A stretch of DNA of 62,158 nucleotides, from assembly GCA_016869145.1 (NCBI GenBank), contig VGEU01000008.1:1-62158 (forward strand), written 5' to 3'. Source of the DNA: Alphaproteobacteria bacterium. GTDB lineage: Bacteria > Pseudomonadota > Alphaproteobacteria > MPNO01 > VGEU01. The number at the start of each line of letters is the position of its first letter. The stretch's first letter is position 1. Below, one piece after another: positions 23,075-39,114 of this stretch. The position numbers and the translations under genes were made by a program. The notes beneath the pieces were generated by a model. The model saw only the letters and a program-made list of their open reading frames with translations, was not told where the DNA came from and made no database searches.

Positions 23075-24907
23075 TCAGGCGGTCGCCCGCGGCCGCTCGG
23101 CGAGCGGCGGCTCCAAGGGCGGCAGATCCTCGCGCGTCAGCGTCTCCTTTTCGAGAAGGAGACGGGCCCCGGTATCGAGCTGACGACGGTTGGTCGCGAG
23201 GATCGCCCGCGCCCGCGCAAAGGCCTCGTCGATGAGCGTCTTTACCGCGAGATCGATCTCGCTCGCCGTCGCCTCGCTGTACTCCCGCTCGAGAAATCCG
23301 GCGCGCGCCTGATCGCCGAGGAAGAAAGGGCGGCGGCTGTCATAGGCGGCCTGCCCGAGCGTCTCGTTCATGCCGAACCGGGTCACCAGATTGCGTGCGA
23401 TCTCGGAGGCCTTGCTGAGATCGTCGGCGGCGCCGGTCGACACCTCGTCGAAGGCGAGCGCCTCGGCCGCGCGCCCGCCGAGGAGGACAGCCATCCGGTC
23501 CTTGAGCTCGCGCCGCGTCATCAGGAATCGATCTTCGGTCGGCCGCTGCAGCGTGTAGCCGAGGGCGCCGACGCCGCGCGGGATGATCGAGATCTTGTGC
23601 ACCGGGTCCATACCGGGCAGCGCGGTCGCGACGATGGTGTGGCCCATCTCGTGATAGGCGACGACCGAGCGCTCGTGCGGCGACAGGACCCGGCTCCGCT
23701 TTTCGAGCCCGGCGACGATGCGCTCGATCGCGGCGGTGAAGTGATCCATTGTGACCGTGTCGGCGCCGGCGCGCGTGGCGAGGAGCGCCGCCTCGTTGAC
23801 GAGGTTGGCGAGATCGGCGCCCGTGAAGCCCGGGGTGAGCGCGGCGACCTGCGAAAGGTCAACCGTCTTCGCCGCCGCGATCTTCTTGATGTGCACCTCG
23901 AGGATCTGCACGCGGCCAATCTTGTCGGGCCGATCGACGAGCACTTGGCGGTCGAAGCGGCCGGCGCGGAGCAGCGCCTGGTCGAGGATCTCTGGCCGAT
24001 TGGTCGCGCCGAGGATGACGACGTCTTTGCGCGGATCGAAGCCGTCGAGCTCGACCAGGAGCTGGTTCAGCGTCTGCTCCTTCTAGTCGTGGCCGCCGAA
24101 ACCGCCCGCCATGCGGGCGCGGCCGACCGCGTCGAGCTCGTCGATGAAGATGATGCAGGGCGCGACCTTCTGCGCCTGGGCGAAGAGATCGCGCACGCGC
24201 GCGGCGCCGACGCCGACGAACATCTCTACGAAGTCCGAGGCCGAGATCGACAGGAACGCGACGTCCGCCTCGCCGGCGACCGCGCGGGCGAGGAGCGTCT
24301 TGCCGGTGCCCGCCGGGCCGACCAGGAGTATCCCCTTCGGGATGTGCGCGCCGAGGCGGCCGTATTCCTTCGGGTTCCGGAGGAAGGCGACGATCTCCTG
24401 GAGCTCGGCCTTGGCCTCGTCGACGCCGGCGACGTCGGCGAAGGTCACCTTGGTATCGCTCTCCATGTAGACCTTGGCCTTGCTCTTGCCGATCGACATC
24501 AGCCCGCCCATTCCCTGCTTCTCGGCGATGTTGCGGAAGAGGAACATCCAGATGCCGAAGAAGAGGAGGACCGGAAGGACCCAGGACAGGAGGTCGCGGA
24601 AGAACGTGTTCTCGATCACGCCGGTGTAGCGGACGCCGTATTTGCTCAGCATCTCGGCGAGCTCGGGGTCGACCCGGTTGGTGATGAACGCGCTCTCGCC
24701 GCCGGGCAGCGGCTCGCGCAGCCTGCCCTGGATCTTGTTCTCGCGGATCGCGAGCTCCTCGATCTTGCCGGCCTTGAGGAGCTCCTCGAACTGACTGTAG
24801 GGGATCGGCGCGACCCGGCTCTACTGGCTCCACCAGCCCTGGAACAGGAGGATCACACCGAGCGCGATCATCACGTACCAGAGCTTGAACTGCGCCTTCT
24901 TGTCCAT
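23075..24907 (-). pseudogene. ftsH: FtsH-type AAA zinc metalloprotease with two in-frame TAG codons
   Basis: Read through, this is a 610-codon FtsH: one N-terminal helix (FKLWYVMIALGVILLF), a periplasmic domain with [17 protein letters not shown], a second helix, then AAA motifs [22 protein letters not shown] and [20 protein letters not shown], and zinc motif AYHEMGHTIVA with the distal Asp in STGAADDLSKAS. Codon 29 (24821-24823) and codon 275 (24083-24085) are TAG. The second lies in GGFGGHD-x-KEQTLNQ, where FtsH normally has Glu. Everything else is intact and well conserved. It is isolated from tilS/glmM, so it may be a second, dispensable FtsH. Sequencing error, decay or readthrough are all possible. 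Confidence 0.85.
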
Positions 24908-25045: not shown

Positions 25046-25990
25046 ATGCCGCTCGATCCCGAGATGCAGGCCATCGTCGACCGCGCCGCGGCGGCGGCGA
25101 AGACCGTCGTCGATCCGTTCGATCTCGCCGTCGCGCGCGATCTCTACGCCAAGGCAAGCGTGCCGAACGCACCGGTCCCGCCCGCCATGCGCGCGGTCGA
25201 TGATCGTGTGGTGCCGGGGCCGGGCGGACCGATCCCGGTCCGCGTCTATACGCCCGAGACCGGCCGGTCAGGCGCGCTGCCGGGCCTTCTCTACTTCCAC
25301 GGCGGCGGCTGGCTTCTCGGCTCGATCGCGACACACGACGTCTTCTCGCGCTCGCTCGCCGCCGCCGCCGGTGCCGTCGTCGTCTCGGTCGACTACCGGC
25401 TCGCGCCCGAGCACAAGTTTCCGGCCGCGGTCGAGGACGCCTGGGCGGCGATCCGGTGGATCGCGCGCGACGGTGCCGCGATCGGTGTCGATCCGGCGCG
25501 GATCGCGGTCGCGGGCGATTCCGCGGGCGGCAATCTCGCCGCCGTCATATGCCAGTTGGCGCGCGACCAGGACGGCCCGGCGCTCGCCTTCCAGCTTCTT
25601 CTCTATCCGACGCTCGATCTCACCGCCGACACCGACTCGATGCGGGCATTCGCGACCGGGTTCCTGCTCACCCGCGCGGCGATGGACTGGTTCGCGCGCG
25701 AATATCTCGCCGATCCGGCGCAGAAGACCGATCCGCGCGCTTCGCCCGGCCGGGCGATCGATCTTTCTCGGCTCGCGCCGGCGCTCGTCGTAGCGGCGGA
25801 ATGCGACGTTCTCCGTGACGAGGCGAGGGCCTATGCGGAGCGGCTTCGCTCGGCCGGCGGGCGCGCCGACTATCGTGCGATCCCGGGTGTGACTCACGGC
25901 TTCATCCGGATGGGCGGCACGCTCGCCGTCGCCAACCGCGTGCTGGCCGACCTCGGCGAGGCGATGCGCGCGCTCTATGCCGGGCGCTGA
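25046..25990 (+). CDS. Alpha/beta hydrolase of the hormone-sensitive lipase family
   Basis: This 314-residue cytoplasmic esterase has the oxyanion motif LLYFHGGGWLLGS, SVDYRLAPEHKFPAAVEDAW, nucleophile GDSAGGNLAAV (Ser about 160), AECDVLRDEA and the catalytic His in GVTHGFIRMGG. These define family IV (HSL) esterases acting on short acyl esters. The ATG was chosen because AAGGAG lies six bases upstream and the longer open frame is antisense to ftsH. It is divergent from ftsH, and its 3' end overlaps the convergent reductase gene by 16 bases. Confidence 0.85.
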   Translation: MPLDPEMQAIVDRAAAAAKTVVDPFDLAVARDLYAKASVPNAPVPPAMRAVDDRVVPGPGGPIPVRVYTPETGRSGALPGLLYFHGGGWLLGSIATHDVFSRSLAAAAGAVVVSVDYRLAPEHKFPAAVEDAWAAIRWIARDGAAIGVDPARIAVAGDSAGGNLAAVICQLARDQDGPALAFQLLLYPTLDLTADTDSMRAFATGFLLTRAAMDWFAREYLADPAQKTDPRASPGRAIDLSRLAPALVVAAECDVLRDEARAYAERLRSAGGRADYRAIPGVTHGFIRMGGTLAVANRVLADLGEAMRALYAGR

Positions 25991-26589
25991 GCGAGGAGCG
26001 CGATCGCGTCGTCGACCGCGCCGGCGCAATCGTCGAGCCAGGCGCGCCGTATCTCCGGCGTCGATCGCGCCATCGGGCCATAGACGCGGCGGACCACGTC
26101 GGCGATCCCGGAGAACCCGAACACGCCCTTGCCCCAGATCCTCTCGAGCGGGTCGCCGAACACATCGCGCTCGCGGTCGGGGACGGTGTTGGACGTGTTG
26201 AAGACGAGCGCGCGGCGCGCCTTCAGAAGACCGACCGGAACGCCCGCGGCATCGACCCCGGCCGGATAGTCGTAGGCGACACCGGGGCGGATCACGCGGT
26301 CGATCCAGCCCTTGAGGATCGCCGGCGGCATGCCCCACCAGTTCGGATGGCAGACCGCGACGAGATCGGCCGCGACGAGATCGGCGCAGTGCCGCTCGAC
26401 GAGGGGATCGCCCGAGCTGCGATTGTCGCGCTCGCCGGTCGCGAGCACGGGGTCGAATCCTTCCGCGTAGAGGTCGTGGAACGCGATCGCGAGGCCGGCC
26501 TTGGCCGCGCGCTCGCGAACGGTCGCGCCGAGCGCGTGGGCGAAGCTCGCGGGATTCGGGTTGGCGACGAGGATGTCGATCCGCGCCAC
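25975..26589 (-). CDS. NAD(P)H-dependent flavodoxin-fold oxidoreductase (NQO/MdaB-like)
   Basis: This 204-residue protein has a flavodoxin-like fold: IDILVANPNPASFAHALG binds the flavin phosphate, followed by FHDLYAEGFDPVL and the quinone-reductase signature VCHPNWWGMPPAILKGWID, then RPGVAYDY. Members reduce quinones or free flavins with NAD(P)H. GTG start, seven bases after the LLM monooxygenase stop, so it may supply that enzyme with reduced flavin. It is the last gene of the 30542-25975 operon. The TAG stop lies inside the convergent esterase gene. Confidence 0.8.
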   Translation of the reverse strand: MARIDILVANPNPASFAHALGATVRERAAKAGLAIAFHDLYAEGFDPVLATGERDNRSSGDPLVERHCADLVAADLVAVCHPNWWGMPPAILKGWIDRVIRPGVAYDYPAGVDAAGVPVGLLKARRALVFNTSNTVPDRERDVFGDPLERIWGKGVFGFSGIADVVRRVYGPMARSTPEIRRAWLDDCAGAVDDAIALLAQRPA

Positions 26590-26596
26590 GCGCGGC

Positions 26597-27841
26597 CTAC
26601 TCGGCGGCACTCGCCCGCGGCGTCTCCGCGAGCCAGGGATACTCGCGGGCGAATAGCTTTTCCGATTCGGCGCGGAGATAGGGCGCCACCTCGGTCGCGA
26701 ACAACCGCGCGCTCTTGCGCGCATGCTCGGGCTTCATGTTGCCGAAGTGGAACTGGATCAGGAGATTGCCCGCGCCCGCCATCTCGATGAGCTGCCAGAG
26801 CTTCCGCCGCACCGTCTCGGGGCTCCCGACGATGATCGAGGCCGCACGCTCGAGCTCCGCCCAGTCACGCACGTCGCCCAGCATGTCGGCCGAGGGGTCG
26901 CTGGTCCGGAGATAGGCCTCCCACGACTTGACCGAGGTGTTGGGAACGCCCGGTCCGAAGGTCAGGCTCCGGCCCTTTTTCCGGAGATGGCCCTTGAGAC
27001 AGTATTTGAGGAAGTACCAGATCCCCTCCTGCGATTCCCGGCGCGCGATCTCGTCGGTCTCGCCGATATAGACCGAGAGCAGGATGCCGAAGCGGAACGG
27101 GTGGTAGCGGCCGCCGAACTGCCCGATCACCTGCGCGAACTCGAGCGAGGCGCGACGCGTCGCATCGCCGTGGGTGCGCGAGGACAGGAAATAGTCGAAG
27201 CCGCGCCGCGCGGCCTCGACCATCGTCTCGCGGCTGCGTCCGCCCGGGATCCAGACCGGCGGATGCGGCATCTGGCGCGGCCGCGGCCACAGGTTGACGT
27301 AGCGGAGCGGAAAACGCGGCCCCTCGTGCTCGAACGGACCGTCGCGCGTCCACGAGGCGACGACGAGGTCGATCGCCTCCCACAGCCCGTCGCGCGCCTG
27401 AGGCTGAGGCACGTCGTAGTTCCACGCCTCCGGCCCCGAGCCGAGCGCGAAGCCTGCGATGAGGCGTCCGTTCGACATCGAATCGATCATCGCATACTCC
27501 TCCGCGACCCGAAGTGGGTTGAGGTGGAGCGGCAGGAGATTGCCGAGGACGACGAGCTTTGCCTTCTTGGTGCGCTGGGTGAGCGCCGCGGCGATGATGT
27601 TGGGCGAGGGCATCAGCCCGTAGATGTTCTGGTGATGCTCGTTGAGCACGAGGCCGTCGAAGCCGAGCTCCTCGCCGTAGACGAGCTGGTCGATATATTC
27701 CTGGTATAGCCCGTCGGTCTTCTCGCGGTCCCACAGCGTGTTCGGAACGGTGACCCAGCCCGATTCGTACTTCTCGTCGAAATCGGCGGGAAGATACGGG
27801 TAGGCCATGAAGTGCCAGCAGAAGAGTTGCACCGGGCGCAT
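26597..27841 (-). CDS. LLM class (luciferase-like) flavin-dependent monooxygenase
   Basis: This 414-residue TIM-barrel enzyme of the bacterial luciferase family uses FMNH2 (or F420H2) and usually O2. Seen: LGFDGLVLNEHHQNIYGLMP, a typical substrate/flavin His motif, IDSMSNGRLIAGFALGSGPE, WPRPRQMPHPPVWIPGG and IIVGSPETVRRKLWQL. It is closely similar in layout to the LLM protein at 35053-36240. It lies between a TctC-type receptor (44 bases upstream) and a flavodoxin-fold reductase (seven bases downstream), which fits a two-component monooxygenase for an imported small molecule. Substrate unknown. Confidence 0.8.
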   Translation of the reverse strand: MRPVQLFCWHFMAYPYLPADFDEKYESGWVTVPNTLWDREKTDGLYQEYIDQLVYGEELGFDGLVLNEHHQNIYGLMPSPNIIAAALTQRTKKAKLVVLGNLLPLHLNPLRVAEEYAMIDSMSNGRLIAGFALGSGPEAWNYDVPQPQARDGLWEAIDLVVASWTRDGPFEHEGPRFPLRYVNLWPRPRQMPHPPVWIPGGRSRETMVEAARRGFDYFLSSRTHGDATRRASLEFAQVIGQFGGRYHPFRFGILLSVYIGETDEIARRESQEGIWYFLKYCLKGHLRKKGRSLTFGPGVPNTSVKSWEAYLRTSDPSADMLGDVRDWAELERAASIIVGSPETVRRKLWQLIEMAGAGNLLIQFHFGNMKPEHARKSARLFATEVAPYLRAESEKLFAREYPWLAETPRASAAE

Positions 27842-27885
27842 GGGATCGCTCCTCGTTCGTGCAGTCGGTGGGCGGCCTGCGCGGC

Positions 27886-28917
27886 TCAGCTCTTGCCGTC
27901 GTCGACGCCCATGATGGTGCGGGCCCGGTTGACGATGTCATCGTCGGTGTCGACGACCGCCGTGGCGGCCTTCTGCAGCATGTCCCACGACACCGGATCC
28001 CATTCGAGGTTGCGCTCGCGCGCGGCCTTGATGGTCTCGGGATCGTTGAGAGCCTTCCAGAACGTGTCGCGGAGCGCCTTGAGCCGGTCGGCCGGCACGC
28101 CGGGCGGCGCCACCCATGCGCGGCCGAGAATGCCGGAGCCGAAGATGAACTCGAGCACCCTGCGGTCCTTCGGGTCCGCCACCATCGAGGTGATCAGCGG
28201 CACGCCCGGGAGGTCGGCGATCGGCTCGAGATCGGCGACGCCGAGATGGACCATCTGGTCGAGCAGGTGGCCCTTGTTCTGGCGGAGCGAGGCCCACACG
28301 CCGGCGCGGCCGTGGATCTCCTTGTTCTCGAGCGCCTGGTCGACCGCACCCATCCCGGGATAGCCGGTGATGATCTTGAACTTGGTGCCCATGATGGCGT
28401 TGACGGCGGCGGGGATGGTGTAGGTCTGCGAGCCCTTGCCGCTGGAGCCGAGGACGATCTCCTTGGTCCGCGCCTCGGCGAGCGTCGAGACGCCGGCCGA
28501 CTTGTAGACCGAGATCACGCTCTGCGCCTTGGTCGCGCCGCCGAGATAGTGGAACTCCTTGGGCTCGTACTTCACGCCGGTGAGCTTGAGCCGGTAGGCC
28601 ATCGGCATGTCGGACAGCATGATGCCGATATGGGTGCCGTCGCGTGGGCTCCGGTTGTAGAGATAGTTCGCCGCGCGCGTGCCGCCGGCGCCGCCCTCGT
28701 TCTGGATGATGAAGGTCGGATTGCCCGGCATCATCCGCTCGATCGTGTTGGAGAGGAACTGCGAGTAGAGGCTGTGGCTGCCGCCGGCGTTGGAGGCAAC
28801 GATGATGGTGACGACCTTGCCGCGGTAGAAGTCGGCGACCGGATCGGCCTTGGCGGGGAGCGCCGGCAGCGCGACCAGCGCGCCGAGCGCGACGGCGAAC
28901 GGAAGGCGACGGAGCAT
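27886..28917 (-). CDS. Tripartite tricarboxylate transporter (TctC/Bug) substrate-binding protein
   Basis: This 343-residue periplasmic protein has a signal peptide (cleavage near LPAKADP) and the Bug-family pattern: YRGKVVTIIVASNAGGSHSL, then the conserved FIIQNEGGAGGTRAANYLY segment, then ILGRAWVAPPGVPADRLKAL near the C-terminus. An ATG at 28941 also exists, but 28917 gives a normal signal peptide. TctA and TctB membrane partners are absent from the window, so the receptor may serve a transporter elsewhere or act as a sensor. It is the second gene of the operon starting with the amidohydrolase. Confidence 0.85.
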   Translation of the reverse strand: MLRRLPFAVALGALVALPALPAKADPVADFYRGKVVTIIVASNAGGSHSLYSQFLSNTIERMMPGNPTFIIQNEGGAGGTRAANYLYNRSPRDGTHIGIMLSDMPMAYRLKLTGVKYEPKEFHYLGGATKAQSVISVYKSAGVSTLAEARTKEIVLGSSGKGSQTYTIPAAVNAIMGTKFKIITGYPGMGAVDQALENKEIHGRAGVWASLRQNKGHLLDQMVHLGVADLEPIADLPGVPLITSMVADPKDRRVLEFIFGSGILGRAWVAPPGVPADRLKALRDTFWKALNDPETIKAARERNLEWDPVSWDMLQKAATAVVDTDDDIVNRARTIMGVDDGKS

Positions 28918-29024
28918 CGGTTGTCTCCTGGAAGAGGGCAAGGGTAGAGCCTATCACGGTCCCCCCAGGTCGCGGCAAGCCGGGTGCCGCGCGGGCGCCG
29001 GCGGCGCCTCGCGATCGCGCTCGG

Positions 29025-30542
29025 CTACCCGAACGTCCGCGGGAACCCGGCGTAGCGGTCGAAGCCGACGTCGGCGGCCCAGATGCGCCGGTGCGCCTCG
29101 CGCACATAGGGAAGCGCCGGCTCGACCGCCTTGGCCATCGTATCGAGATCGCGGCGGAACTGCGGCAGATAGGCTGCGACCTCGCGGTGGAGCGCCTCGA
29201 CATCGACCGTCGTCACGCGCCGATCGCGAACGACGATGCGGCCGTCGACGATCACTGTTTCGACGCTGCGCCCGGTCTCGCTGTAGACGAGCTGGCGCGC
29301 CACGCTGTTGAGCGGCAGGAACGTCGGATCGGCGAGGTCGAGGATCGCGAGATCGGCCTTGCGGCCCGGCCGGATCGCGCCGATCTCGTTCTCGAGCCGC
29401 GCCGTCCGCGCGCCGCCGAGCGTCGCGAGCCGGAGCGCCTCGGGTGCCCGGAGCGAGGTCTGCGCCGGGTCCGACACCGCGTTCAGCATCGCGTAGAGCT
29501 TCATCGCCTGGAAGATGTTCTGGGTGTCCGAGCACGAGCAGTTGTCCGAGCCGAGCGCGAGCCGGACGCCGGCCCTGCGCAAAGTCGGGATCGGCGCGAT
29601 GCCGCTCTTGAGCCGGAGATTGCTCATGAAGTTCATCACCAGGCCGACATCGCGCTCGGCCATCATCGCGATGTCCTCGGGCGCGAGCCAGACGCCGTGC
29701 GCGATGGTGACGCGGGGCCCGAGCATGCCGAGCCGGTCGAGATAGCGGAGATAGGTGCCGCCATCCTCGCCAAAGGCCTGGCGCGCGTAGAGGGCCTGGG
29801 CCTTGGTCTCGTAGACATGGGTGTAGATCGGCAGATCGTGGCGCTCGGCGAGATCGACGACGGCCTCGATCATCGCCGGGGTGCAGCGCTGCGGTCCCGA
29901 CGGGCCGAGCGCCCAGGTGCCGCGCGGGCCCGGCGTCGGGCGGCGGCGGATCTGGGCGGCGACGAAATTGGTGATCGGGCGCGGGTCGACGTTCTCGTTT
30001 CCGACCAGCGCCTGGAGCGCCGGCGGCAGCACCTCCTTCCAGAACGGCACCGTCGTCACGTTCGAAAGGTCGCGGATCTGCACCGCATAGACGACGCGGA
30101 TGCCGGCCTCCTCATAGGCCGCGAGGATGGTGTCGACCACGTCGTCGCGGAACGGCGCGAAGGTGCTCATGTCCTGGACTGTCGTGATGCCGTTCCGGAG
30201 CGCCTCGACGGCGCCGGCGAGCGTGCGGAGCCGCACCTCCTCGAGGCTCCGCGCACCGCCGAGGGGGCCGGTCATGAGGATCCACATCTCGAGCGGCAGT
30301 TCCTCGACCAGGCCCTTGGCGAGGACGTCGTGGGAGTGGTAGTGCGCATTGACGAGGCCGGGGATGACGAGCTTGCCGCGCGCCTCGATGACCGTCGCGC
30401 CGCCCGCCGGAAGACCGGTGCCAACCGCGGCGATGCGATCGCCTGCGATCAGGACATCGGCCGTCGCCGGCTCGTGCACGTCGCCGTCGTGGTCATAGAC
30501 GCGCCCGCCGCGGATCAGGATCGTCGGGGTCGGTTCGGTCAT
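29025..30542 (-). CDS. Amidohydrolase of the TRZ/ATZ (AtzA/SsnA-like) family
   Basis: This 505-residue metal-dependent deaminase or chlorohydrolase has a single-metal site: GLVNAHYHSHDVL (His-x-His), IYTHVYETKAQA (His), IAHGVWLAPEDIAMM (His), and LGSDNCSCSDTQ (Asp). Family members act on triazines, guanine, adenosine or other N-heterocycles. Length is slightly above the usual 450-470. The start MTEPTPTILIRGG was preferred over an ATG 15 codons upstream. It is the first gene of a four-gene catabolic operon, divergent from the ABC ATPase. The actual substrate cannot be told from sequence. Confidence 0.8.
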   Translation of the reverse strand: MTEPTPTILIRGGRVYDHDGDVHEPATADVLIAGDRIAAVGTGLPAGGATVIEARGKLVIPGLVNAHYHSHDVLAKGLVEELPLEMWILMTGPLGGARSLEEVRLRTLAGAVEALRNGITTVQDMSTFAPFRDDVVDTILAAYEEAGIRVVYAVQIRDLSNVTTVPFWKEVLPPALQALVGNENVDPRPITNFVAAQIRRRPTPGPRGTWALGPSGPQRCTPAMIEAVVDLAERHDLPIYTHVYETKAQALYARQAFGEDGGTYLRYLDRLGMLGPRVTIAHGVWLAPEDIAMMAERDVGLVMNFMSNLRLKSGIAPIPTLRRAGVRLALGSDNCSCSDTQNIFQAMKLYAMLNAVSDPAQTSLRAPEALRLATLGGARTARLENEIGAIRPGRKADLAILDLADPTFLPLNSVARQLVYSETGRSVETVIVDGRIVVRDRRVTTVDVEALHREVAAYLPQFRRDLDTMAKAVEPALPYVREAHRRIWAADVGFDRYAGFPRTFG

Positions 30543-30617
30543 GGCGCGGCCAATCGATGTGTCGGGATCGGTGCGCAATGTCATCATGGCGGGCGCATGC
30601 CGGCAAGCGGTCGTCCG

Positions 30618-30676
30618 CCGGTGCCCGACGACCGGTGCCCGACGCGGCTTGACGGAACCGGTGCGCGGTCCACAAT
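30618..30676 (+). promoter_or_regulatory. Candidate promoter with direct repeats for the ABC ATPase gene
   Basis: Two copies of CCGGTGCCCGACG lie at 30618-30630 and 30632-30644, and a looser third copy follows from about 30658. Right after copy 2 is TTGACG (30649-30654), then 16 bases and CACAAT (30671-30676), a fair sigma-70 promoter pointing to the ABC gene. The repeats overlap the upstream side of the -35, a common place for an activator to bind. The 208-base gap has no gene. Confidence 0.45.
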
Positions 30677-30750
30677 GGCCCCCCGCCCGCCGGTCGATCG
30701 GGCGTTCCGCCGCAGGCTACCTCGTGCCCAGGGATCCCATCTTGCCCGTG

Positions 30751-31479
30751 ATGATCGAGATGCACAAGGTCGGCAAGCGCTTCGGCGACTTCCGCGCGCT
30801 GCGCGCGGTCGACCTCAGCGTGCAGCTCGGCCAGAAGGTCGTGGTGTGCGGACCGTCGGGCTCCGGCAAGTCGACCCTGATCCGCTGCATCAACCGGCTC
30901 GAAGTGCATGACGAGGGCAGCATCGTCGTCGACGGCATCGAGCTCACCGACGACACCCGCAACATCAACGCCATCCGGCGCGAGGTCGGCATGGTGTTTC
31001 AGCAGTTCAACCTGTTCCCGCATTTGACCGTGCTGCAGAACCTGACGCTCGCGCCGATGCGCGTGCGCGGCATGAGCCGGGTCGAGGCCGAGGACCTCGC
31101 GATGCTCTATCTCGAGCGGGTGCGCATCCAGGACCAGGCGCGCAAGTTCCCGAGCCAGCTCTCGGGCGGCCAGCAGCAGCGCGTCGCGATCGCGCGGAGC
31201 CTGTGCATGAAGCCGCGCGTGATGTTGTTCGACGAGCCGACCTCGGCGCTCGATCCCGAGATGATCAAGGAGGTGCTCGATGTGATCGTCGAGCTCGCGG
31301 CCGAGGGCATGACGATGGTGTGCGTCACACATGAGATGGGCTTCGCCCGCCGCGTCGCCGACCTGATGGTGTTCATGGACAAGGGCGAGATCGTCGAGAC
31401 CGCGCCGCCCGATCGGTTCTTCTCGCATCCCGCGAGTGAGCGGACGCGCCTCTTCCTGAGCCAGATCCTCTCGCACTGA
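30751..31479 (+). CDS. ATP-binding protein of a polar amino-acid ABC transporter (GlnQ-like)
   Basis: This 242-residue ABC ATPase has Walker [11 protein letters not shown] (near residue 35), Q-loop [16 protein letters not shown], signature [15 protein letters not shown], Walker [15 protein letters not shown] and H-loop THEMGFAR. The close match to GlnQ/HisP/ArtP suggests polar amino acid uptake. No permease or binding protein of that type is adjacent. A GTG at 30724 could also start it, but ATG 30751 gives the usual [14 protein letters not shown] beginning. It is followed by an MFS gene 12 bases after the stop. Confidence 0.85.
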
Positions 31480-34270: not shown

Positions 34271-35056
34271 ATGGCGGGTCAGACGCATGATTTCGTGACG
34301 ATATCGGGTACCCGGCTGGAGCTCCGCCGCGGCGGCGAGGGCCCCCCGGTCCTGTTCCTGCACGGCGGCGCCGGGAACGCCGACTGGATGCCGTTCATGA
34401 ACCGGCTCGCGCAGCGCTTCGACGTCATCGCGCCGAGCCATCCCGGTTTCGACCGGTCGGACACGCCGGACTGGCTCGATTCGATGTCGGATCTCGCTTA
34501 CTTCTATCTCGATCTCCTCGAGGCGCTGGACCTCGACGGCGTACACGTGATCGGCCATTCGCTCGGCGGCTGGCTGGCGGCCGAGATCGCGGTGCGGTCG
34601 AGCGCTCGGCTCGCGACGTTGACGCTGGTCGGTGCGGCCGGCATCCATGTCCCCGACGTCAAGAAGGGCGATCCGTTCCTGTGGACGCCCGAGACGCTGG
34701 TGCGCAAGCTCTTCTTCGACCAGAAGCGGGCCGAGGCACTCCTCGCCCAGGCGACGAGCGCCGAGGCGGCCGACATCGCAATCAAGAACCGGTTCACGAC
34801 CGCGAAGCTCGCCTGGCACCCGCGCTTCTACAACCCGGACCTCCGGAAGTGGCTGCACCGCATCCGACTGCCGACGCTCGTCGTCTGGGGCGCGGAGGAT
34901 CAGATCTTTCCGCCGGCCTATGGCGAGGCGTGGCGCGGTCTCGTGGCGGGCGCCACCTTGACCGTTTTCCCGGCGTGCGGCCACCTGCCGCATGTCGAGA
35001 AGCTCGATGAATTCACCGCCGCGTTTGCGGCGTTCATCAACGGAGCGGCACAATGA
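34271..35056 (+). CDS. Alpha/beta hydrolase
   Basis: This 261-residue protein has oxyanion/loop motif VLFLHGGAGNADWM, nucleophile VIGHSLGGWLAAE (Ser about 100), an Asp in VVWGAEDQIFPP and catalytic His in ACGHLPHVEKL. It could be an esterase, lactonase or C-C hydrolase. Its stop overlaps the ATG of the LLM monooxygenase (ATGA), as in several clusters where a luciferase-like oxygenase forms an ester or lactone that the hydrolase then opens. First gene of a five-gene operon. Confidence 0.8.
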   Translation: MAGQTHDFVTISGTRLELRRGGEGPPVLFLHGGAGNADWMPFMNRLAQRFDVIAPSHPGFDRSDTPDWLDSMSDLAYFYLDLLEALDLDGVHVIGHSLGGWLAAEIAVRSSARLATLTLVGAAGIHVPDVKKGDPFLWTPETLVRKLFFDQKRAEALLAQATSAEAADIAIKNRFTTAKLAWHPRFYNPDLRKWLHRIRLPTLVVWGAEDQIFPPAYGEAWRGLVAGATLTVFPACGHLPHVEKLDEFTAAFAAFINGAAQ

Positions 35057-36240
35057 GATTCTTCTGCTTCCATCTCATGCCCTATGGCGCGCTCGACCTC
35101 AGCTGGACCGACGAGCATGAATCGGCCTGGGTCACGCTGCCCAATCGCTACTACGACCCGAAGAAGGGCTTCGAGCTCTACAACCGCTATCTCGACGAGC
35201 TGATCTACGCCGACACGCTCGGCTTCGACGGCATATGCGTCAACGAGCACCACCAGACCGCCTACGGCATGATGCCGGCCCCGAACGTCCTCGCGGGTGC
35301 GCTCGTCCGCCAGACCAGGAACGTGCGCATCTGCGTTCTCGGTCGCGCGCTGCCGCTCGTGAACAACCCGATCTACATCGCCGAGGAGTTCGCGATGCTC
35401 GACAACCTGTCGGGAGGACGCCTCATCGCGGGTTTCGTGCGCGGCATCGGTTGCGAATACCACGCCAGCATGGCGAACCCCGGCCAGTCGCACGAGCGCT
35501 TCCACGAGGCGCATGATCTCATCGTCCAGGCGTGGACGCGGCCCGGACCGTTCGAGTTCGCCGGCAAACATTTCCACATCCAGTACGTAAACCTGTGGCC
35601 GCGCCCCTACCAGGAGCCGCACCCGCCGATCTGGATTCCCTCGCAAGGAAGCCGCGAAACGATCGAGTGGGCCTCGCACCCCGACCGTCGCTACACCTAT
35701 CTGCAGACCTTCAGCCCGATCGATTCGGTCGCGAAATACATGCAGCAATACCGCGACACCGCGGTCGCCTACGGCTACCAGCCGACGACCGATCAGCTCG
35801 GCTGGGCGGTTCCGGTCTATGTCGCCGAGACCGACGAGAAGGCGCTCCGCGAGGCCAAGCCGCACGCCGAGAACTTCTACGCCAAGTTCATCAAGTCGCC
35901 GCTCGAGTACCGGCTGCCGCCCGGCTACACCTCGATGTCATCGATGAAGGCGATGATCGAATCGAAGTTCAAGTACAGCCTCGCCTCGCCCGACATGGAC
36001 GCGCTCGTCTCGCGCGGCATGATCATCTGCGGCAGCCCGTCGACCGTGGTCGAGAAGCTCGAGGCCTATCAGGCCCGGCTCGGCTTCCGCAACCTCATCA
36101 GCATGATGCAGTTCGCGACGCTGCCGCACGAGCTTACGATGAAGAGCATGGCGATGTTCGCGGCGGAGGTGATGCCGCGTTTGCGTTCGGTCGGCGAGCC
36201 GACGGGCCGCCCGGTTCGGTCGATGGCGGCGGCGAAATAG
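35053..36240 (+). CDS. LLM class flavin-dependent monooxygenase
   Basis: This 395-residue luciferase-family enzyme has FDGICVNEHHQTAYGMMP, FAMLDNLSGGRLIAGFVRG, WPRPYQEPHPPIWIPSQGS and MIICGSPSTVVEKLEAY. The start overlaps the preceding hydrolase stop and the stop lies one base before the next ATG, so the three are tightly coupled. It shares the opening FCxHxMxY and the NEHHQ motif with the protein at 26597-27841, so the two operons have related oxygenases. Cofactor FMN is likely; F420 cannot be excluded. Confidence 0.8.
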   Translation: MRFFCFHLMPYGALDLSWTDEHESAWVTLPNRYYDPKKGFELYNRYLDELIYADTLGFDGICVNEHHQTAYGMMPAPNVLAGALVRQTRNVRICVLGRALPLVNNPIYIAEEFAMLDNLSGGRLIAGFVRGIGCEYHASMANPGQSHERFHEAHDLIVQAWTRPGPFEFAGKHFHIQYVNLWPRPYQEPHPPIWIPSQGSRETIEWASHPDRRYTYLQTFSPIDSVAKYMQQYRDTAVAYGYQPTTDQLGWAVPVYVAETDEKALREAKPHAENFYAKFIKSPLEYRLPPGYTSMSSMKAMIESKFKYSLASPDMDALVSRGMIICGSPSTVVEKLEAYQARLGFRNLISMMQFATLPHELTMKSMAMFAAEVMPRLRSVGEPTGRPVRSMAAAK

Positions 36241-36241
36241 A

Positions 36242-37234
36242 ATGCGTGCCGGCCTCGCTGCGCTCTGTCTTCTCGCCGCGCTCGCGCCGATCGCGTCGGC
36301 GCGCGCCGAGGAGGTGGTCCTCAAGGCCGTCGTCGCCTCGCCGCCGACGCCCGGGCTCGCGGGGCCCTATGCGCGCGCTTATCTCGGCTGGATCGATCGG
36401 GTCAACGCGACGCTCCGCGGCAAGCTCAAGATCAAGCTCCTTCAGGGCCCCGAGGTGCCGCTGCCCAACAAGGCCGCCGCGGCGCTGTCGCGCGGGACGA
36501 TCGACGTCCTCCATTCGCCGACGCGCTATTACAACGCATCGGTGCCGGAGGGCGAGGCGCTCAGCGGTTGCGATCTGCCGCTGAGCGAGGTGCGGCGGAA
36601 CGGTACGTTCGACCTCCTCAACCAGATCTGGCATGACAAGCTCAACGCCCACGTGCTCGGGTGGTTCGAGTTCGGTGTCTCCTACGCCGTCTATACGACC
36701 CGTCGCCCGGCCATGTCCGACGGCCGGCTCCAGCTCGCCGGCCTCAGCCTCCGCTCGACGTCGACGCTCCGCGACTTCGTGTCGGCGCTCGGCGCACGGC
36801 CGGTCGCGATCAACGCCGATGAGATCGCCGCCGCACTCGATCGCGGTCAGATCCAGGGCCTGTCGTTCCAGACCGTGGCGCTCGCGAGCGTCGTCCCCCT
36901 GACGGCGGTGCGGTACCGCATCGAGCCCACCGTCCTCCGCGGCGCGAACCTGCTCCTGATCAATCTCGATACCTGGAACGGGCTGACGCCGGCCCTCCGG
37001 GAGGCCTTGCAGCGGCTCGCCCGCGAGGGCGAGGAGGAATCGATCCGGGTGATCGCGGACGAGGCCACGCGCGAACGGGCGGCGCTGATCGGGGCCGGGG
37101 TCGAGATCGTCGCCCTCGAAGGTGCGGCGGCGCGCGATTATGTCGGCCGGGCATCGGAAGCGGTCTGGGCTCGCGTCGCCGATCGATCGCCGGATCATGT
37201 TCAGGCGCTGCGGCTCCAGCTCGCCGGACGGTAG
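36242..37234 (+). CDS. TRAP transporter substrate-binding protein (DctP family)
   Basis: This 330-residue periplasmic protein has a signal peptide (LAPIASARAEE) and the DctP pattern: VPLPNKAAAALSRGTIDVLH, YNASVPEGEA, a central VSYAVYTTRRP and LRSTSTLRDFVSALGARPVA, and a late LLINLDTWNGLTPALREAL. The membrane subunits DctQ and DctM are missing. It begins one base after the LLM stop. It probably captures the substrate or a precursor of the hydrolase/LLM pathway. Confidence 0.75.
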   Translation: MRAGLAALCLLAALAPIASARAEEVVLKAVVASPPTPGLAGPYARAYLGWIDRVNATLRGKLKIKLLQGPEVPLPNKAAAALSRGTIDVLHSPTRYYNASVPEGEALSGCDLPLSEVRRNGTFDLLNQIWHDKLNAHVLGWFEFGVSYAVYTTRRPAMSDGRLQLAGLSLRSTSTLRDFVSALGARPVAINADEIAAALDRGQIQGLSFQTVALASVVPLTAVRYRIEPTVLRGANLLLINLDTWNGLTPALREALQRLAREGEEESIRVIADEATRERAALIGAGVEIVALEGAAARDYVGRASEAVWARVADRSPDHVQALRLQLAGR

Positions 37235-37247
37235 CGGAGACCCGATA

Positions 37248-37955
37248 TTGGACGAGCAGGCGGAACGACAGCCCGCGGACTCGGTCGAGATCGCCGTCGC
37301 GTTCGGGCGCGCCCCGCAACAGCAACGGAGCCGGTGCACGATGCAGCGCATCGTCCTCGCGGCGGAAACGCTGTTCGGCGCCAACGGCTACGAGCACACC
37401 TCGGTCGCCGAGATCGTGGCCCGCGCCCGGTCGTCGGTCGGGGCGTTCTATTCGCGGTTCAAGGACAAGGAGGGGCTCTTCTTTCATCTTCACGCGCGCC
37501 AGTGCCACCTTCTCATCGAGCGCATCAATGCGCTCGCCGACGAGAAACGATGGCGGAACGCGACGCTCGCGGAGATGATCGCCGGCATCGTCTCCGGCCA
37601 GTTCGCTTTCGTGCAGGAGCGGCGCGCAATGAGCCGGGTGTTCATCCAGCGGAGCGCGACCGATCCGGCGTTCCATGAACGCTACGCCCGCGCCTGGCGC
37701 GAGGTCGCGGACACGCTGCAGGCGCTCTTGATGACGCGCCGACACGAGATGCGTCATCCCGAGCCGGCGCGGGCGGTCGACATGGTGCTCGAGTTGCTGC
37801 ACAGCATATGGGCGAACGACGTCCTGCACCATGGCGCCCCGGACATCACCGGACGGTTCGATCTCAAGACCCGCGAGCGCGAGGTAATCGCGGCCTTCCT
37901 CGCCTATCTCGGCGCCGACGCGGGCGAGCCGGAACGATCGCGGTCCGATCGTTGA
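37248..37955 (+). CDS. TetR/AcrR family transcriptional regulator
   Basis: This 235-residue DNA-binding protein has a TetR helix-turn-helix: RIVLAAETLFGANGYEHTSV, then AEIVARARSSVGAFYSRFKD and KEGLFFHL, followed by a helical ligand domain. A TTG start (37248) is proposed because GCGGAGA lies about ten bases upstream and the only upstream ATG codons are in the preceding gene. A shorter start at ATG 37341 is possible. It lies 13 bases after the TRAP receptor, so it is co-expressed and could autoregulate through the inverted repeat at 34214-34242. Confidence 0.8.
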   Translation: MDEQAERQPADSVEIAVAFGRAPQQQRSRCTMQRIVLAAETLFGANGYEHTSVAEIVARARSSVGAFYSRFKDKEGLFFHLHARQCHLLIERINALADEKRWRNATLAEMIAGIVSGQFAFVQERRAMSRVFIQRSATDPAFHERYARAWREVADTLQALLMTRRHEMRHPEPARAVDMVLELLHSIWANDVLHHGAPDITGRFDLKTREREVIAAFLAYLGADAGEPERSRSDR

Positions 37956-38031
37956 CTGGCCGCCCGCTCGACGTCCGGCCGACGCGCAACCGATCACCGC
38001 GGCCATCGAACACTGTGCCAACCCGGAGACG

Positions 38032-39114
38032 ATGATGGAATTCGGCTATTTCACGCTCAGCGACAACCGCTATCCCGACAACCCGCGGACGCCGGAGCAG
38101 TTCGTGCGCGACATCTATGCCGAGGCGCTTCATGCCGAGACGGTCGGCATGAACTCGGCCTGGATCGGCGAGCACCACTTCAACCTGCTCGGCGTCAATT
38201 CATCGCCGAGCATTCTCCTCGCCAAGCTCGCCGGCGCGACGCGACGGATCCGGCTCGCGCCCGCGGTCGTCCTTCTCCCCGTCCACCATCCCCTGCTCGT
38301 CGCCGAGGAATGGGCGACGCTCGATCTCCTGACCGACGGCCGCGTCGACTTCGCCGCCGGTCGCGGCTACGACGCGATGGAGTACGCACCTTTCGGGGCG
38401 CCATTCACCGATTCGGCCGCAATCTTCCAGGAGGGGTTCGAGATCCTGTGGCGGGCATGGACCGAGCCCGGGCGCTGGTCGCATGAGGGGAAGTACTACC
38501 GCTTCGAAGACATCGAGGTCCGCCCGCGCCCGCACCAGAAGCCGTTCCTCCCCTTCGTCGCCTGCTTCTCGCGTCCCTCGATGCAGCTCGCCGCGCGCAA
38601 CGGCTGGAACATCATTTTCGCGCCGTTCGCGGCCTCGCTCGTCTATGGCAGCCTCGCGGGCGCGGTGCGCGAATATCGCGAGGAATGCGCCCGTCCCGGC
38701 CGGTCGCCGCAGCGCGCCAGTTGCAGCTATTTCGTCCATATCGCGAAAACGCCGGCGGAGGACGCCTATGGTCGCGAGAGGCTGCTCCGCTATTTCAAGG
38801 ATGCGCTGATCGACGCCTTTCCCGGCGATCCCAAGACCGCACCGCCGACGCTCGCCTATTTCGTCCAGATCGTCGAGATGCTGCGGACCATGCAGGCGGC
38901 CGATCTTTCCGCACGCTCGGTCCTCGTGGGCTCGCCGGCCAAGATCATCGCCGACCTCAAGGACATCGAGGCGGCGGGGATCGACGAGGTGATCCTCTAT
39001 TTCAACTACGGTCTGAAGCCGCACGCGATGGTCAAGGACCAGATGCAGTTGTTCATGGAGGAGATCGCCCCCGCCTTCGCCGGCAACCACCGGCGTCTGG
39101 CGGCGCGGCGCTGA
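38032..39114 (+). CDS. LLM class flavin-dependent oxidoreductase
   Basis: This 360-residue luciferase-family protein has MNSAWIGEHHFNLLG, ILLAKLAGATRRIRLAPAVV, TDGRVDFAAGRGYDAMEY, SVLVGSPAKIIADLKDI and YGLKPHAMVKDQM. It is more distant from the other two LLM proteins in the window. It follows the TetR gene by 76 bases. Two ATGs (38032 and 38035) are equally usable. Its stop lies in a 13-base direct repeat. Confidence 0.8.
   Translation: MMEFGYFTLSDNRYPDNPRTPEQFVRDIYAEALHAETVGMNSAWIGEHHFNLLGVNSSPSILLAKLAGATRRIRLAPAVVLLPVHHPLLVAEEWATLDLLTDGRVDFAAGRGYDAMEYAPFGAPFTDSAAIFQEGFEILWRAWTEPGRWSHEGKYYRFEDIEVRPRPHQKPFLPFVACFSRPSMQLAARNGWNIIFAPFAASLVYGSLAGAVREYREECARPGRSPQRASCSYFVHIAKTPAEDAYGRERLLRYFKDALIDAFPGDPKTAPPTLAYFVQIVEMLRTMQAADLSARSVLVGSPAKIIADLKDIEAAGIDEVILYFNYGLKPHAMVKDQMQLFMEEIAPAFAGNHRRLAARR

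Follow-up and report, generated by a model that had tools for sequence, protein, structure and literature searches.

Related systems and the locus

The described systems closest to the four-gene unit considered here include: (i) type II Baeyer-Villiger monooxygenases (BVMOs), such as 2,5- and 3,6-diketocamphane monooxygenase of the CAM plasmid, the lactone products of which open spontaneously or by an esterase (PMC5395668), (ii) the large families of luciferase-like monooxygenases (LLMs) of SAR202 bacteria (PMC5395668), (iii) the Rut pyrimidine pathway (RutA-RutF), (iv) the Bug/TctC orphan receptors (BugD, Bug27, TphC and TBP), and (v) the TRZ/ATZ amidohydrolases (AtzA, TrzN, 8-oxoguanine and 5'-deoxyadenosine deaminases). 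The unit lies on the minus strand at 25975-30542 of contig VGEU01000008.1 from an uncultured alphaproteobacterium (assembly GCA_016869145.1); the window is the whole stretch of DNA that was analyzed, 62,158 nucleotides in length. In order of reading, its genes encode an amidohydrolase, a TctC-like receptor, an LLM and a flavodoxin-fold NAD(P)H enzyme. The unit is probably specific to its lineage rather than a conserved pathway operon; the receptor and LLM would form its core, an alpha/beta-hydrolase would be supplied in trans, and the amidohydrolase and flavodoxin-fold enzyme would be of local occurrence.

The LLM shares the luciferase-superfamily fold with the type II BVMOs of the CAM plasmid, and, as in the CAM system, its reductase may be encoded apart and an esterase or hydrolase is the logical next enzyme. 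The LLM differs in having only ~22% identity to these enzymes over the fold, and its Baeyer-Villiger reaction and substrate are putative. To our knowledge, a conserved adjacent hydrolase family and an orphan TctC receptor are not among the known features of the CAM system. Another LLM of this superfamily catalyzes the Baeyer-Villiger oxidation of progesterone to testosterone acetate (PMC12239570). As here, the SAR202 FMN/F420 monooxygenases are a large paralogous LLM family of an uncultured bacterium, and they are predicted to oxidize recalcitrant organic matter (PMC5395668); SAR202 is, however, of a different phylum, and the LLMs of the present genome include LLM-alpha/beta-hydrolase pairs, seven of them adjacent plus a split one.

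The Rut pathway is alike in logic, as it also combines an LLM with an alpha/beta-hydrolase (RutD) and a flavin reductase. The initial annotation had drawn this comparison, and it does not hold at the level of families. RutA is absent from the 17 NCBIfam models matched (E 0.001), as well as from the PDB sequence matches and the 50 fold matches listed for the LLM; the hydrolase partner scores 61.5 bits against a RutD cut-off of 238.5; and a RutF-type reductase is missing from the unit. On these family grounds, a RutA-like pyrimidine pathway was rejected. What the same annotation had reported of the gene row is confirmed in full for the open reading frames, their strand, their order and their spacers of 107, 44 and 7 bases. 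Its family assignments stand for the amidohydrolase, TctC and LLM proteins, while the fourth protein, labeled flavin reductase-like, is instead of the Flavodoxin_2 type and not of the flavin-reductase type PF01613.

The luciferase-like monooxygenase and its hydrolase partner

The LLM gene (27841-26597, minus strand, ATG...TAG, 414 aa) encodes a Bac_luciferase protein (Pfam, 4.5e-36, 125 bits against a threshold of 27.9). Its structural model (mean pLDDT 82.7) is nearest in fold to RslO1 (Foldseek E 2.7e-20), the Agrobacterium protein 2I7G and the type II Baeyer-Villiger 3,6-diketocamphane monooxygenase, with a TM score of 0.67 normalized to the query. The nearest solved structures are FMN enzymes by sequence and by fold alike. 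The genome has 34 LLM-family matches in total.

Orthologs of the LLM were sought in named genomes, from which the best 80 loci (55-76% identity) were taken. The relatives compared are a sample that includes several metagenome bins and no member of the genus or family, and the genes of related loci were called by a simple codon-position script. The 80 loci fall in Alphaproteobacteria and Candidatus Binatia, and most genomes of the order carry an ortholog at 65-74% identity. One particular alpha/beta-hydrolase directly adjoins the LLM ortholog in 70 of the 80. The present genome encodes an ortholog of this hydrolase (59% identity) in mid-contig at C14:23819-24595, beside a molybdenum hydroxylase subunit, and its next seven best matches to the hydrolase each adjoin an LLM paralog. 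The LLM of the unit is thus separated from its usual hydrolase partner, since the hydrolase ortholog resides on C14 and the other seven hydrolases are each beside an LLM paralog. The seven adjacent LLM-alpha/beta-hydrolase pairs were observed in this genome (G000) on contigs C1, C2, C3, C8, C11, C31 and C35.

The second recurring neighbor is the receptor. In 15 of the 80 loci, a TctC-like gene on the same strand immediately flanks the LLM-hydrolase pair, and TctC occupies 19 flank positions where ~2.7 would be expected by our estimate, given the overall frequency of TctC genes in these loci. The 15 loci belong to related Rhizobiales-type genomes and are not independent events. The association of LLM with a TctC receptor is real and recurring, and no tested family other than the hydrolase and TctC shows strong recurrence. 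FMN_red and flavin reductase genes are absent from the ~7 kb around each of the 80 LLM orthologs, and an amidohydrolase of the type of the unit is not detected in these loci (at E 1e-10). The XDH-type molybdenum hydroxylase, which occurs beside the C14 hydrolase and, in Neorhizobium, close to distant LLM pairs, was considered as a further conserved partner and rejected as a general rule, as it is no denser in the 80 loci than in control loci.

More distant members (33-39% identity) from cultured bacteria also form LLM-alpha/beta-hydrolase pairs, often with a reductase and frequently with SDR genes. The accompanying genes are of the FMN_red type in Neorhizobium, Mesorhizobium and Bradyrhizobium, of the flavin-reductase type in Rhodococcus, Mycobacterium and Caballeronia, and of riboflavin synthesis in Mycobacterium and Haladaptatus. 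From these distant arrays we infer a gene logic in which an alcohol is converted to a ketone, the ketone undergoes Baeyer-Villiger insertion and the resulting ester is hydrolyzed.

The TctC-like receptor

The receptor gene (28917-27886, minus strand, ATG...TGA, 343 aa) encodes a protein with a signal peptide-like N terminus that falls under the gathering score of Pfam TctC (17.2 against 27 bits). By sequence its closest relative is a terephthalate-binding protein. The AlphaFold model has a pLDDT of 90.4, and its top Foldseek matches are all TctC/Bug proteins; the 17 best PDB matches are assigned to TctC/Bug by title (2dvz by sequence similarity), with TM scores of 0.60-0.69 by query length. 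Judged by its modeled fold, the protein is a divergent TctC/Bug-type periplasmic solute-binding protein.

The divergence is apparent in a loop for which the canonical Bug motif is PFxAGGxxD (PMC8556258). In the receptor this motif is replaced by ASNAGGSHSLYS; the residues aligned to it read ASNAGGSHS, and the P, F and D are also gone in orthologs of 45-52% identity. The Bug subclade of the receptor has a loop of the type AGPGGxHxxYS instead. Thus, the receptor shares the fold and overall family of BugD, Bug27, TphC and TBP but differs from these orphan receptors in its sub-threshold Pfam score and subclade-specific loop, and permease genes do not adjoin it. Its orthologs (45-52%) adjoin UbiD/amidohydrolase-2 genes or sit in a ubiE-ubiB-coaBC locus, and 31 TctC candidates are present in the genome. 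A literature search for TctC together with LLM found nothing relevant.

The amidohydrolase

The first gene of the unit (30542-29025, minus strand, ATG...TAG, 505 aa) encodes an Amidohydro_1 protein (Pfam, 4.4e-57). The protein has all of the metal/catalytic motifs H-x-H, H-x-x-E, H and D, in the form of HYH, HVYE, AHG and GSD, as seen in an alignment to a solved amidohydrolase and, for some of them, to AtzA. Its nearest solved relatives are AtzA (4v1x) and deaminases, and such relatives act on triazines or nucleosides. By its sequence, the enzyme belongs to the TRZ/ATZ-deaminase clade. While the active-site motifs and a clade-level similarity are common to the named TRZ/ATZ enzymes, the amidohydrolase is unlike them in forming its own orthologous group (46-58%) with varied neighbors and in falling below every equivalog cut-off. 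The NCBIfam deaminase/chlorohydrolase models match far under their cut-offs (at best 241.7 bits against 609), and no named equivalog is reached.

The orthologs of the amidohydrolase lack the company that it keeps here. At 20 ortholog loci (46-58% identity, order and class level), no TctC gene, flavodoxin-fold gene or close LLM relative is present, and two further amidohydrolase loci from G182 are also without TctC or a close LLM relative. Four of the 20 loci do have an LLM beside the amidohydrolase (G002, G005, G011 and G022, three of which come from one genus); these LLMs were rejected as counterparts, as they are of another subfamily (~68-101 bits to the profile).

Two occurrences of more distant homologs were noted on plasmids. 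In Ensifer and Sinorhizobium (L281/L282), a homolog of 39-40% identity ends a row of genes for a BMP-type ABC transporter, a VOC protein and a nucleoside hydrolase; this position suggests a nucleobase-type substrate for that branch. On a plasmid of Bradyrhizobium sp. 186 (L278:21922-23420), an unannotated homolog of 37-39% identity is interrupted in frame and lies ~10 kb from an LLM-hydrolase-receptor-reductase array.

The flavodoxin-fold enzyme

The last gene (26589-25975, minus strand, GTG...TAG, 204 aa) encodes a protein that matches Flavodoxin_2 (5.5e-30, 105 bits against 27) and FMN_red (35.6 bits) only; the flavin-reductase domain PF01613 of the RutF type is not detected. Among solved structures, the protein is closest to NAD(P)H:quinone oxidoreductases, and it is assigned on this similarity as a flavodoxin-fold NAD(P)H oxidoreductase of the NQO/KefF/azoreductase type. 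Its orthologs are sparse: none is found at E 1e-30 in the sampled genomes of the order, and the best (58%) is from elsewhere in the class. The five best orthologs have no LLM, TctC or amidohydrolase gene nearby. A role as the conserved LLM reductase was rejected, because the orthologs (45-58%) sit among unrelated genes, such as those of complex I and of methionyl-tRNA synthetase in G091. An NQO/KefF-type NAD(P)H enzyme adjoins the LLM in this genome only. The amidohydrolase and the flavodoxin-fold enzyme are local additions, and any functional link of the two to the receptor and LLM is hypothetical.

Organization of the unit

The four genes form a co-directional, bounded unit. Each has a G+C content by codon position typical of real genes, and each has orthologs in other genomes (best identities of 76% for the LLM, 58% for the amidohydrolase, 58% for the flavodoxin-fold enzyme and 52% for TctC). 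A consensus scan of the minus strand, which is weak evidence, detects neither promoter-like nor terminator-like sites within the unit. Co-transcription of the four genes is plausible, and the 107-base spacer between the amidohydrolase and TctC genes could hold a promoter of its own; the spacers of 44 and 7 bases follow between TctC and LLM and between LLM and the flavodoxin-fold gene.

Proposed role and alternative explanations

We infer the chemistry, cofactor and substrate of the unit, and any transcript of it, along the following lines. An orphan Bug-type receptor and a luciferase-like, probably FMNH2-dependent monooxygenase would make up the core. An organic compound, probably a ketone or an acid, would be imported, and the LLM would most likely insert a single oxygen atom into it by a Baeyer-Villiger-like or ring-opening oxidation. 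The oxygenated product would then be hydrolyzed by the alpha/beta-hydrolase, which contig C14 encodes in trans. Reduced flavin may come from the flavodoxin-fold enzyme, or this protein may be no more than a quinone/nitro-reductase that ended up in this place. For the amidohydrolase, a hydrolytic deamination or C-N/C-X hydrolysis of its own is most likely, and it would share the transcript, not the pathway.

Several points weigh against this lineage-specific scheme. A conserved four-gene version may exist in an unsampled close relative, since the inspection covered 20 + 2 amidohydrolase loci from a sample of relatives in which the genus and family themselves are not represented. The 7-base spacer suggests translational coupling of the LLM and flavodoxin-fold genes and, through it, a shared role. 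The similarity of the modeled LLM fold within the luciferase superfamily is compatible with several reactions, as luciferases, sulfonate monooxygenases and F420 enzymes are barely more distant. In addition, the cofactor of the LLM could be F420 instead of FMNH2, because the genome makes F420, to judge by a CofH/FbiC-like biosynthesis gene that scores over its family cut-off.

Simple gene shuffling, with no functional link among the four, is an unlikely account of the unit in this genome with its many LLM and TctC paralogs. The abundance of both families (34 LLM-family matches and 31 TctC candidates) and the absence of a conserved four-gene set are what such shuffling would leave; yet TctC stands beside the LLM-hydrolase pair several times more often than its density in those loci predicts, and spacers of only 44 and 7 bases separate the genes of the unit concerned.

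A single catabolic operon, in which the receptor captures an N-ring compound, the amidohydrolase deaminates or opens it and the LLM oxidizes it, the fourth protein providing the reduced flavin, is about equally improbable. The bounded, co-directional layout with short spacers is in its favor, as are the intact amidohydrolase motifs and the triazine- or nucleoside-active relatives, and pyridine carboxylates are bound by some Bug proteins (PMC11452294). Further points in its favor are the ~40% amidohydrolase homologs in the transporter-nucleoside hydrolase cluster of Ensifer and Sinorhizobium and the Bradyrhizobium plasmid, where an LLM, hydrolase, receptor, FMN_red-type reductase and interrupted amidohydrolase homolog occur within 13 kb. 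Against it, the set is not conserved and each gene has other neighbors elsewhere; the conserved hydrolase partner of the LLM is missing from the unit; the fourth protein is of the NQO/KefF type with no ortholog at the threshold given above in the order; and no FMN_red or flavin reductase accompanies the LLM orthologs. A literature search for clusters of a pyridine-cleaving LLM with an amidohydrolase found nothing useful. The initial annotation had proposed that the four genes serve one pathway and had named a lack of conserved neighbors as the finding that would speak against it. Such conservation is seen only for TctC beside the LLM in Rhizobiales-type loci, so that its link between capture protein and LLM is borne out, while the amidohydrolase and flavodoxin-fold genes are not found with an LLM of this group or with TctC elsewhere in the genomes sampled. 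As for its suggestion that the flavodoxin-fold enzyme feeds the LLM, a reductase next to an LLM makes sense in principle, since reductases adjoin some distant LLM-hydrolase pairs, but no FMN_red or flavin reductase is near the 80 orthologs. In a comparison with hundreds of genomes, the part of the set that recurs is the LLM, often with the receptor. A single dedicated four-gene N-heterocycle operon is thus unlikely.

Least likely is that the LLM is an F420-dependent oxidoreductase to which the flavodoxin-fold gene is unrelated, as the F420 biosynthesis gene, the weak matches to F420 LLM subfamilies (TIGR03619, 71 bits) and the lack of reductases near the 80 orthologs are offset by the FMN enzymes that are its nearest solved structures and by the flavin reductase, riboflavin-synthesis or FMN_red genes beside more distant members. 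A fused CofG/CofH (FbiC-like) F420 biosynthesis gene was noted in this alphaproteobacterial genome at G000:C53:19351-21600.

A broader extension of the lineage-specific scheme is offered tentatively, as a possibility of rather low probability. The LLM orthologs and the alpha/beta-hydrolase may represent a widespread, undescribed oxygenase-hydrolase module of Alphaproteobacteria and Candidatus Binatia (with distant versions in actinobacteria and haloarchaea) that is repeatedly joined by orphan TctC-type receptors and opens common recalcitrant ring or ketone compounds. The module would be split in this genome, and a new grouping of the oxygenase with an amidohydrolase and a quinone-reductase-like protein would extend it to N-containing compounds. 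If the LLM-hydrolase pair is a type II Baeyer-Villiger/esterase module fed by orphan receptors, a testable function would be provided for one of the large uncharacterized LLM families of uncultured bacteria. The families of the unit are known ones in a new combination, and the useful lead is the widespread LLM-hydrolase pair. The locus also cautions that what looks like a neat operon in a single genome may have been assembled locally, with the real partner gene elsewhere.

Flanking genes and other features of the window

The 5' end of the unit is bounded by a polar-amino-acid type ABC ATPase gene (30751-31479, plus strand) with no permease or receptor genes adjoining. The divergent spacer between this gene and the amidohydrolase (30543..30750, 208 bases) is, by its sequence, the likely promoter region of the unit; the consensus scan finds a single weak site in it, on the plus strand. 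The 3' end is bounded by a convergent HSL-family esterase gene outside the unit (25115..25990, plus strand; Abhydrolase_3, with NCBIfam LipP1 barely above cut-off), which overlaps the flavodoxin-fold gene by 16 bases (25975-25990).

At 23075-24877 (minus strand) lies an ftsH gene whose reading frame is broken only by two internal TAG codons (24821-24823 and 24083-24085). The neighboring genes use TAG as a normal stop codon, and a second FtsH (49% identity) with no internal stops is encoded on another contig; thus, the copy in the window looks like a decaying paralog or contains sequence errors. A second LLM cassette at 34271-39114 (plus strand) includes genes for an alpha/beta-hydrolase, an LLM, a DctP-type receptor, a TetR regulator and another LLM; its hydrolase and first LLM are 52% and 64% identical, respectively, to a hydrolase-LLM pair on a plasmid of Neorhizobium petrolearium.

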